From positions 1-64,000 of the forward strand of contig WQZP01000004.1 of assembly GCA_009780675.1 (NCBI GenBank): DNA of 64,000 bases, read 5' to 3'. This DNA comes from Spirochaetaceae bacterium (GTDB taxonomy: Bacteria; Spirochaetota; Spirochaetia; CADAEX01). Shown one piece after another: positions 48,001 to 63,264 of the stretch (positions are counted from its first letter, which is position 1; each line of letters starts with the position of its first letter). The notes beneath the pieces were generated by a model, which searched no databases, was not told where the DNA came from, and worked only from the letters and a program-made list of their open reading frames with translations. A program made the position numbers and the translations under genes.

Positions 48001-48834
48001 TCAATCCAATAGCACTTTCCAAACAGCGTCGGCTGGCTGTGTTTGAGATGCTGCGTAAAAAAGATAGTAACCTGGATATGTCGCAGATACAAAATTCCAT
48101 CCTCTCTTTAAAGAAACATTATTAAATCGCCAGTGACCTTCATCATAATTTAAAACTACATCTTTATCTGCGTAGAATAAAAATGTATAAATATCACCCT
48201 CACTGTCGGAACCTAACATACACAAGACATACCATTGAGTCGATTCCCAAAAACCATTTATATCAAGAATCTTTGCATCAGAAGGAGTTGCATATGTTGG
48301 ACCGTATTCAAACATCCAGTCAGCTTCTGGTTGATCCAGTTCTATGGTCAGCCGTCTGTTGCTGCCTGCGCCTGTTATCTGTACTTTCGGTGTTCCGGTT
48401 ATTACATCGCTAAGCTGATAGAATCCTTCCAACCAAAAAAATGAAAAGTCAGTTATATCGGTTTCATCCAGGAATTCTATTGGCAAATTAGATAATCTTA
48501 GCCTGCTTGGGTCAACATTAACGACACTACTGGTTTTGCTGTTATAACCTGTTGCGCTTACAGTTACAGTATAGTCTCCTGCTTCTGTAGGCATGAATTT
48601 GTTTGAATTTGTGCCTACATTGGTTGCTCCTCTTTTCCACTGGTAGGTAACAGTTTCGCTTCCGCTGTAAGTAGCAGCAAGTTCTGTGCCCATGCCTGCG
48701 CTGGTTGGGGTGACGGCGATTGATCCTTTAAGGTCAGGGGTGCCTTTATCATCATCGTCACCGCAACCAACCATTGAAAACCCGATTATCGCTGCAAAGG
48801 CAATAATCCCGATTAGTTTGAATGTGTTTTTCAT
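48001..48834 (-). CDS. Ig-like-domain lipoprotein
   Basis: A 277-residue lipoprotein. The signal M-K-N-T-F-K-L-I-G-I-I-A-F ends in lipobox M-V-G-C, and an acidic G-D-D-D-D tether follows. Residues about 35-110 are an Ig-like/PKD-type beta sandwich (V-T-Y-Q-W-K-R-G-A-T). The C-terminal 160 residues are beta-rich with many aromatics and unassigned. Lipoproteins with this N terminus are numerous in gut treponemes. A perfect AGGAGG site lies 7 bases before the ATG. Upstream is a two-dyad element also found behind the LuxR gene, so this gene is probably a target of the same regulator. Confidence 0.85.
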   Translation of the reverse strand: MKNTFKLIGIIAFAAIIGFSMVGCGDDDDKGTPDLKGSIAVTPTSAGMGTELAATYSGSETVTYQWKRGATNVGTNSNKFMPTEAGDYTVTVSATGYNSKTSSVVNVDPSRLRLSNLPIEFLDETDITDFSFFWLEGFYQLSDVITGTPKVQITGAGSNRRLTIELDQPEADWMFEYGPTYATPSDAKILDINGFWESTQWYVLCMLGSDSEGDIYTFLFYADKDVVLNYDEGHWRFNNVSLKRGWNFVSATYPGYYLFYAASQTQPADAVWKVLLD

Positions 48835-48921
48835 AAATATCCTCCTAAATTTTTCTTAGAATAAAATCATAGTACTCAGTACCTAAAAGTAAAATTATTT
48901 AGAGAAAACGCATTTGCCTAG

Positions 48922-48980
48922 CTACTAAATTTAGTAGGGTGGTAGTTTTTGGAGGATTTGCACCTACTAAATTTTGTAGG
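48922..48980 (-). promoter_or_regulatory. Paired-dyad regulatory element, copy A
   Basis: Two inverted repeats 25 bases apart. Read toward the lipoprotein gene the first is CCTACAAAATTTAGTAGG (48980-48963, one mismatch from perfect) and the second is the perfect 16-bp CTACTAAATTTAGTAG (48937-48922). The second would overlap the -35 position of a promoter with -10 TAAATA (48896-48901). The same layout with a similar spacer, including C-C-A-A-A-A-A, occurs at 62804-62862. Confidence 0.65.
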
Positions 48981-61384: not shown

Positions 61385-62809
61385 ATGATAAATAAATTAA
61401 AAGTGACAGCTCTACGGCTTTTTCAAACACGGGACGAACTGACCTTTCGCAATATCAGGGGCAGTCTATGGCCTGTTTTTTTAATATTTCCTCTTTCGGT
61501 AATCATGGGAGATCTACGCTACTTTGATTTGGGCATTACTATGGCAGGCTTTGAGTCTTATGAGCTGATGCTTTATCCCCTGGGGCTTGGCTGGCTTGTC
61601 TTAGCCTTTACACCGAAAAACCATGTGCTCCCGCTCCTCCGGGCAGCTGCTATGATTTGCGCTGTTTTGCTGCCATTACAGATTTTCACGCCTAGCCCAA
61701 TAGGACAGCTTGCATTTTTTATGGGCTTCCAGTTTTTAAATGGAATATGCGCTGCTGCTGCATTTTATCTGTTTTGCTTTGTTTTGAATAATGTTGAACG
61801 TCTGTTTGGCATGATTATTATCCAGTTTTACTACGGATTCTATTACACGATCTGGAGGGCGTTCCCCGCTGTTCAGGAGTTAGGTATAACCTGGGTCGCT
61901 GCTGTAGTAATGGTAGCTTATATTGTCGTGGTCTTTGCATGCCGCATGCCGCGGGAAGAAACTTCCACCTGCAGTGATGGCAAAGAATCAGGAGTCCCCT
62001 TTGTTATTGGTTTAGCTGTTGTGTACTACATGATAATGTGCATGATCAATTACATAGAATGGATGGAAGAAAGTGTTTCCAGTTTGGCATTTGGTATTGG
62101 TTCTTTTGCTTCTATTGCCCTGATTATTTTTATCCAGGTGCTAAGCAATCGCAATGCCCTTTATATTTGGCTTTTATTTCTGGCCCTCTCTTTGCTGGGG
62201 CTCGGCATTCTCATATACGATTCACATAAAACCATGCTGCTCGGATCATTCGCATATGGATTGGGAGACGGCTTGGGCTATATTATTATTTATTATATAT
62301 GCGCAGGAACTATAAAACAGAGCAAGTCACTTAAAATGTTCAGGCTTTTTTGTTTTATAATGTTTGCCTCGTATTTCATTATTTCCGGCATATTCTCACA
62401 AGCCTTTACTAACTACGCTGGACCAAACCACTTTTTGGCTTTCGGTGTCGTATTGGTTTTATGTTCCGTCTGCTTCATATTGGTGCCACTTATGCAAAAA
62501 AAGCTATTTGAAGTTAATTGGACAGATGGCCAGCACTTGCGGGATATGGCAGAGTATTCAGATTCTCTTTCTGAAATAAAAAAAATTGATAAAAAAAATG
62601 AACTCAACCTGACAGATCGCGAACAAGAAATGTTTACGCTGCTCTTGAGCGACACATCTCCAAAAGAAATTGCTTATAATCTGATGATCAGTTACAACAC
62701 AGTTAATTTCCATATAAAAAACCTTTATCGCAAACTTGGCATCCAAAGCAGAACCGAGTTATTTTCTAAATTTTCGCCAACCTCTGGACAAATTCCACCT
62801 TCCCCCTAA
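61385..62809 (+). CDS. LuxR-family regulator with about 12 membrane helices
   Basis: A 474-residue protein. Residues about 30-380 form about twelve hydrophobic segments, a transporter-like membrane domain. A short linker leads to a C-terminal LuxR/GerE helix-turn-helix (about 405-465: L-T-D-R-E-Q-E-M-F-T-L-L; S-P-K-E-I-A-Y-N-L; Y-N-T-V-N-F-H-I-K-N-L-Y-R-K-L-G). The DNA-binding domain would be cytoplasmic and the membrane domain would sense or transport a ligand. Such proteins exist in treponemes and actinobacteria, with unknown signals. The stop codon TAA lies inside the left dyad of a regulatory element, followed by two small genes. Base composition is less AT-rich than neighbours. Confidence 0.88.
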   Translation: MINKLKVTALRLFQTRDELTFRNIRGSLWPVFLIFPLSVIMGDLRYFDLGITMAGFESYELMLYPLGLGWLVLAFTPKNHVLPLLRAAAMICAVLLPLQIFTPSPIGQLAFFMGFQFLNGICAAAAFYLFCFVLNNVERLFGMIIIQFYYGFYYTIWRAFPAVQELGITWVAAVVMVAYIVVVFACRMPREETSTCSDGKESGVPFVIGLAVVYYMIMCMINYIEWMEESVSSLAFGIGSFASIALIIFIQVLSNRNALYIWLLFLALSLLGLGILIYDSHKTMLLGSFAYGLGDGLGYIIIYYICAGTIKQSKSLKMFRLFCFIMFASYFIISGIFSQAFTNYAGPNHFLAFGVVLVLCSVCFILVPLMQKKLFEVNWTDGQHLRDMAEYSDSLSEIKKIDKKNELNLTDREQEMFTLLLSDTSPKEIAYNLMISYNTVNFHIKNLYRKLGIQSRTELFSKFSPTSGQIPPSP

Positions 62810-62862
62810 GACTTAGTAGGTCACTTAACCGCCAAAAATCACCCCCCTACCAGATTTGGTAG
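62804..62862 (+). promoter_or_regulatory. Paired-dyad regulatory element, copy B
   Basis: Left site CCCTAAGACTTAGTAGG (62804-62820, with CTAAG-A-CTTAG palindrome) and right site CTACCAGATTTGGTAG (62847-62862, perfect except for its four central bases), 26 bases apart. The spacing, the central C-C-A-A-A-A-A and the orientation relative to the next gene match copy A at 48922-48980. Right site is followed by a -35-like GTGACA (62864-62869) and -10-like TAACTT (62887-62892). Confidence 0.65.
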
Positions 62863-62898
62863 GGTGACAAGTTTTATTTTCACAATTAACTTTTTTAT

Positions 62899-63264
62899 AT
62901 GAAATCTTTAAAAATACCACTTACAAAACTTACTACCGATCATTCAGATTGGAACATATTTAAATTCACCTTTTTTTGCGATTGTTGCGAAAATGGCTGG
63001 GTTAGTCCAACGTTTCCATTTTCATCTGACAGGCCTGCTGCCATTAAACAAGAAGACACAATAAAACAGATTTGGGAGCAGGGACGCAAAATGGCATTTG
63101 AACAAGCCAATCTACAAGCTCATTTGTACTTTAACAATTGCTCCGAATGCTGTAGATGTGTTTGCGATAAATGCTTTGGAGCAAAAACCAAAAAGTATTA
63201 CGGCCTTTGCAAAGAATGTTCAGAAAAAAAAACGAACAAAGAGTTTAGCCTGGAAAAAACATAG
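62899..63264 (+). CDS. Small cysteine-rich zinc-finger protein
   Basis: A 121-residue protein with clustered cysteines: C-D-C-C near residue 27, then C-S-E-C-C-R-C-V-C-D-K-C near 82-93, and C-K-E-C near 108. This pattern suggests one or two zinc-binding treble-clef or ribbon units. I do not recognise a named family. No ribosome-binding site lies before the ATG, while the promoter-like boxes put the transcript start at about the ATG, so the message may be leaderless. It is the first gene after the paired-dyad element. Confidence 0.65.
   Translation: MKSLKIPLTKLTTDHSDWNIFKFTFFCDCCENGWVSPTFPFSSDRPAAIKQEDTIKQIWEQGRKMAFEQANLQAHLYFNNCSECCRCVCDKCFGAKTKKYYGLCKECSEKKTNKEFSLEKT

Follow-up and report, generated by a model that had tools for sequence, protein, structure and literature searches.

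The window, by which we mean the whole 64-kb stretch of DNA analysed here (C4:1-64000), belongs to the source genome G000, which comprises 2.40 Mb in 82 contigs. Near the end of the window lies luxR1, the gene of a membrane LuxR, and an element made of two dyads (copy B) follows it on the plus strand. A second copy of the element (copy A) is found on the minus strand. The features of the two loci are as follows.

61385..62809, plus strand: luxR1, membrane LuxR with about 12 helices in an MFS fold and a C-terminal GerE HTH
62803..62820, plus strand: copy B, distal dyad CCCCTAAGACTTAGTAGG, right half-site intact
62821..62845, plus strand: copy B, spacer with central A-tract at 62834-62838
62846..62863, plus strand: copy B, proximal dyad CCTACCAGATTTGGTAGG
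62887..62892, plus strand: copy B, predicted -10 element TAACTT, starting 24 bp past the proximal dyad
62899..63264, plus strand: putative target gene of copy B, 121-aa Cys-rich protein
48963..48980, minus strand: copy A, distal dyad CCTACAAAATTTAGTAGG; the left site is itself a dyad
48939..48962, minus strand: copy A, spacer with central A-tract (CTCCAAAAACT)
48921..48938, minus strand: copy A, proximal dyad CCTACTAAATTTAGTAGC
48892..48897, minus strand: copy A, predicted -10 element TAATTT, 24 bp past the proximal dyad
48001..48834, minus strand: putative target gene of copy A, lipoprotein with Ig-like repeats, MKNTFKLIGIIAFAAIIGFSMVGC signal and Shine-Dalgarno sequence GGAGG

The element and its neighbouring regulator gene

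A preliminary description had placed copy B at 62804-62862 (+) and copy A at 48922-48980 (-), and we confirmed both positions. Indeed, the left sites of the two copies end in TTAGTAGG as claimed there, both right sites match the proposed 16-mer, and the spacers of 26 and 25 bases each contain a central CCAAAAA. In the 64-kb window the 16-mer gave 5 matches at up to 3 mismatches, compared with 0.42 expected. A genome-wide search for further copies furnished three more, at C4:67229, C17:8434/8478 and C17:48380, and with pattern and sequence model together we count five copies in the genome, two of them within the window.

Copy A, C4:48922, minus strand: before the lipoprotein gene
Copy B, C4:62804, plus strand: before the Cys-rich gene
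Copy C, C4:67229: between a lysA-like gene and purL, 3.2 kb past the window end
Copy D, C17:8399-8494: before a lipoprotein gene
Copy E, C17:48341: before a lipoprotein gene, distal dyad lost

A complete copy contains two dyads of 18-20 bp with the sequence ACCTAC-N8-GTAGGT in lux-box geometry. The conserved unit exceeds the one first described, since it also takes in a predicted -10 element that lies 24 bp past the right dyad. In copy B the left half of the distal dyad is degenerate where the luxR stop codon overlaps it. The spacer A-tract alone is not diagnostic because the pattern TCCAAAAACTNCC occurs genome-wide at close to the control rate. Two copies show further particularities. Beside copy E (L014:3110-3855), whose distal dyad is lost, stands a divergent serine-recombinase-like gene; the arrangement looks as though the operator had been invaded by a mobile element. 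Copy C (L012:5228-5400, C4:67227) stands without a lipoprotein gene and is followed by a short remnant similar to bacterial surface repeats and then purL.

The GerE HTH of luxR1 spans residues 408-460 (PF00196, E=1.8e-16) and is homologous to the GerE, VraR, VpsT, SdiA and NarL structures. It was the only domain matched in the Pfam scan, which found no acyl-homoserine-lactone domain. The AF2 model (11-sequence alignment, pLDDT 76) consists of about 12 long helices and the HTH, and Foldseek relates the membrane part to the MFS transporters VMAT2, NorA and OxlT (prob 1.00, TM ~0.5). According to the model, luxR1 would have the 10-12 N-terminal transmembrane helices by which membrane LuxRs are defined, and the C-terminal PF00196 HTH of this class is present. 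The genome has a second membrane LuxR (C1), and no dyad was found near its luxR2. Copies A, C, D and E would be assigned to luxR1 on the identity of their element sequences; the second membrane LuxR could share or own them. The 121-aa Cys-rich protein gave no Pfam match, and its gene is kept 3' of the element in G000, G002, G003, G552, G553, G561 and G576.

Anatomy of the predicted promoter and dyad spacing

In 13 of the first 22 copies, which were chosen on their dyads, we found TAnnnT exactly 24 bp after the proximal dyad, compared with 2.3% at other positions (binomial ~1e-16 with copies treated as independent; 10/16 after thinning). The held-out copies carry it at +24 in 12 of 15 cases and at +23 in the remaining 3, a count that is partly favoured by the search because the model used (R2) included the -10 columns. 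This places the predicted transcription start about 36 bp past the proximal dyad and the dyad centre at about -44.5 relative to this predicted start, with the lux-box reference near -42.5. At several loci the start codon of the Cys-rich or HTH gene lies 36-40 bp past the dyad and no Shine-Dalgarno sequence is evident, as would be needed if the predicted promoter gave a leaderless transcript. For copy B, the predicted start at about 62899 would likewise give a leaderless mRNA. Further downstream of copy A, a sigma-70-like TTTACT-16-TATGAT was first taken as the promoter; the TAnnnT at +24 is better supported across species, and the sigma-70-like sequence is a possible second promoter.

Inspection by eye, in which not every copy was scored, revealed no good -35 hexamer before TAnnnT, so that the promoter looks activator-dependent. 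Together with the proximal dyad abutting the -35 region, this points to the regulator as a class-II-like activator. The same operator and the same LuxR family could also serve repression or switching, in that the proximal dimer would obstruct RNA polymerase at -35: a dyad that abuts or overlaps the -35 region can repress too, and LuxR repression via lux boxes is possible (PMC5601948). We consider this unlikely in view of the promoter's appearance and of the only membrane LuxRs studied, DadR, HcdR and CadR, which are activators (PMC9734109).

The distance between the dyads is 42-44 or 53-54 bp, corresponding to four or five helical turns, and the held-out elements with the longer spacing contain one extra A-tract. 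Within the spacer the A frequency peaks at -1/-2, -9 to -12 and -19 to -22, a periodicity near 10.5 bp (p<5e-4). Because the A-tracts are phased, the spacer DNA is probably curved. The quantised spacing and the A-tract phasing favour recognition at the DNA level over an RNA function, in which the dyads would form two hairpins in the luxR 3' UTR or the target 5' UTR and act as a terminator, attenuator or riboswitch. The CCTAC/GTAGG halves are able to pair, the folds of copies A and C are more stable than those of shuffled sequences (z ~-3, single-strand folds) and the change from CCTAC to CCTAT is compensatory. Nevertheless, we regard an RNA role as highly unlikely: the sixth-position pairs are often mismatched, Rfam scans gave no match to an RNA family, the -10 element lies downstream of the dyads so that the predicted transcript excludes the element, and the half-site covaries with a LuxR residue (see below). 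The likeness to intrinsic terminators, short GC-containing inverted repeats 3' of a gene, is limited in the same way, since terminator scans found no U-tract after the hairpins in the gene direction, a -10 element follows, and copies A, D and E stand upstream of lipoprotein genes rather than 3' of luxR.

Distribution, linkage and co-variation with the regulator

A sequence-only model (R1) built from the five copies of the source genome has matches in two congeneric genomes (E ~1e-7). In G002 (Lab288P4bin6, a termite-gut MAG) the order aminotransferase, luxR1, element and Cys-rich gene is conserved, and the orthologous element has two perfect dyads. In G003 the element and the Cys-rich gene are retained, luxR1 is missing between the aminotransferase and the element (L077:2134-2500), and the genome keeps the paralogous membrane luxR2. 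G001 (99% complete) has neither this kind of membrane LuxR nor the element. The motif CCTAC-N8-GTAGG occurs 6 times in G000, 3 times each in G002 and G003 and not at all in G001, and 10 of the 12 occurrences are at elements or directly 3' of luxR2. The position 3' of the membrane luxR gene is conserved for orthologues and paralogues. In G002 (L085:1884-1966) an ORF of about 27 codons, a lipoprotein-like signal peptide alone, lies between the luxR2 dyad and a full lipoprotein gene. Weak R1 matches outside the genus (G023, G041, G027) were set aside as chance or unrelated hairpins.

Six genomes among the 395 of the class have a relative of the LuxR, as do 30 among the 200 of family f42 (termite-gut Treponema); from their isolate names we take these Treponema MAGs to come from termite hosts. 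The scan of the 395 class genomes for the element returned genus members alone, plus one unrelated pair in G390. In several species paired dyads lie directly 3' of a luxR whose product is 54-66% identical, and the next gene encodes a Cys-rich protein, a stand-alone GerE HTH, a 205-aa protein or a secreted protein. When all 4-mer half-sites with spacers of 0-14 were surveyed within 160 bp beyond the 3' end of 44 membrane luxR genes, CTAC-N8-GTAG was the commonest combination (10/44; the exact dyad is missing there in the other 34). The leading combinations in the 5' and coding controls were different and unrelated.

Exact pairs, searched with a gap of 24-38, i.e., a spacing of 40-54 bp, were found in 7 of the 200 family genomes, namely in 6/30 with and 1/170 without the LuxR (p=4.5e-5). 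All nine pairs are spaced 42 or 43 bp, and the sole LuxR-negative genome, G442, is 55% complete. Model R2, built from 16 copies in nine training genomes and applied at E<=0.01, gave matches in 24/30 LuxR-positive (six had none) and 6/170 LuxR-negative genomes (p=4e-20), and in 15/21 versus 6/170 with the training genomes excluded (p=3e-13); here most genomes are incomplete MAGs and the p-values treat related copies as independent. In non-training genomes, 14 of the 19 matches at E<1e-6 have luxR on the same contig at a distance of no more than 7 kb. The six LuxR-negative genomes with an R2 match are G539-G541, G428, G463 and G400. The matches in G428 and G463 look like chance, and G400 has a clear 53-bp element with no LuxR detected. 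G540, G541 and G539 (L192, L193, L200) carry double- or single-dyad elements before genes with no membrane LuxR detected; these may be used by a more distant regulator.

The genes near the elements include further regulators. At L104:4568-4810 and L107:4538-4807 the first gene past the paired dyads encodes a stand-alone GerE HTH of 80-89 aa that is very like the HTH of the LuxR itself and could compete with it for the same sites. In G395, G398, G340 and G554 (L179, L181, L186, L189), 53-54 bp elements precede a gene for a divergent GerE-like HTH of about 105 aa, about 1 kb from the membrane luxR. Elsewhere (L171, L172, L169, L146, L187) the associated genes encode BOF (OB-fold)-like secreted proteins and often form tandems next to luxR; Pfam confirmed one of the proteins as BOF.

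That the copies are functionless remnants, either of duplicated lipoprotein gene heads or of a small repeat element, might be suspected from the near-identical 5' region and signal peptide of copies A and E, and from copy C, which resembles an orphan after loss of its gene. We give this next to no credence, as the elements of other genera have the dyads, the phase and the -10 element in common while the surrounding sequence is not shared, and they precede unrelated genes (Cys-rich, BOF, SPFH, HTH, lipoprotein).

The half-site varies together with the recognition helix. LuxRs adjoining CTAC/GTAG elements have HxK in this helix, while those adjoining CCTAT/ATAGG elements have HTT (G552), HTA (G553) or HQQ (G546, G547); G576 has CCTAT sites and a LuxR with HTN on another contig. 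In the LuxR tree the CCTAT group is split between two positions, a separation imposed by branches with strong support. Lys at this position goes with CCTAC, and T, A, Q or N with CCTAT, in two independent lineages, a rule that rests on these two evolutionary events. This position, Lys445 in luxR1 (HIKN), aligns with Lys192 of NarL, which contacts bases. Both co-variation and linkage go with the membrane LuxR rather than with another GerE protein. The source genome has two further GerE proteins, both 231 aa and of response-regulator size, one of which might bind the element; since G001 has a similar 229-aa GerE regulator and yet lacks the element, we find this very improbable.

Proposed function and relation to known systems

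The preliminary description had taken the element, by its position and the form of its dyads, for an undescribed operator that the adjacent membrane LuxR uses, and it had made this claim depend on further copies upstream of genes. Such copies exist in the source genome and its relatives, and the conserved position, co-occurrence and co-variation support the assignment. The element thus very probably serves a membrane-anchored LuxR-type regulator of termite-gut spirochaetes as the site of promoter control. With good confidence we describe it, from its sequence features, as a double operator and promoter on which the MFS-GerE membrane LuxR would act as a class-II-like activator.

Each dyad would be occupied by one LuxR dimer. 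With its centre some 44 bp before the predicted start, the proximal dyad would bring its dimer against the -35 region; the second dimer would be placed farther upstream on the same DNA face, at a distance of four or in some cases five helical turns. This second dimer and the curved DNA could help a membrane-held dimer pair to grip the promoter; alternatively, the site could dock the C-terminal domain of the RNA polymerase alpha subunit. Ligand sensing at the membrane would presumably fall to the MFS domain. Activation is suggested by the promoter geometry and by the precedent of Eggerthella lenta (Coriobacteriia), in which DadR, HcdR and CadR, LuxRs with 10-12 TM helices, activate neighbouring enzymes, on induction by substrate, through a mechanism called unclear (PMC9734109; see also PMC11585353). 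Like luxR1, these proteins combine an N-terminal multi-helix membrane domain with a C-terminal PF00196 HTH and are encoded beside their (proposed) targets. However, their neighbours are redox enzymes, whereas the spirochaete genes lie beside Cys-rich, BOF, lipoprotein and HTH genes. In the literature searched, including PMC9734109, we found no operator described for membrane LuxRs of the DadR family, and a search on LuxR in termite Treponema found nothing.

Two classical sites can be compared with the element. The lux box of LuxR/LuxI quorum sensing has the consensus ACCTGT-N8-ACAGGT and the form CT-N12-AG. The spirochaete element shares the 20-bp CT-N12-AG dyad adjoining the -35 region, with ACCTAC-N8-GTAGGT in most copies, but doubles the box, with phased A-tracts between the two boxes and a distance of four or five turns; its putative regulator has an MFS-like domain, and the Pfam scan found in it no acyl-homoserine-lactone domain. 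Operators of the NarL/FixJ type are likewise inverted repeats ending in TAC/GTA and read by a GerE helix (for NarL, pairs of TAC...GTA heptamers). In the NarL 7-2-7 site TAC and GTA stand 10 bp apart, compared with 8 bp in the element, which also differs by its fixed double-dyad layout.

One may speculate about a general operator code for MFS-LuxR membrane one-component regulators, in which double dyads are set at integral turns with phased A-tracts, each added turn brings one more A-tract, and the helix residue, Lys versus T/A/Q/N, sets the half-site as CCTAC or CCTAT. Taken jointly, we hold this as a tentative proposal that falls a little short of an even chance. On such a code the design of the curved double site may serve to bring the promoter to the membrane-held dimer pair.

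In gut bacteria, membrane-anchored LuxR regulators govern the metabolism of drugs and polyphenols, and such systems are already known; what is new is the element as a variation of the LuxR-type operator. With the element come a site precise enough to search for, a predicted start point and a specificity rule based on one residue, so that regulons become predictable and one can test directly how chromosomal promoters are read by a factor bound to the membrane. For the uncultured spirochaetes of the termite gut, it provides a first predicted regulon.
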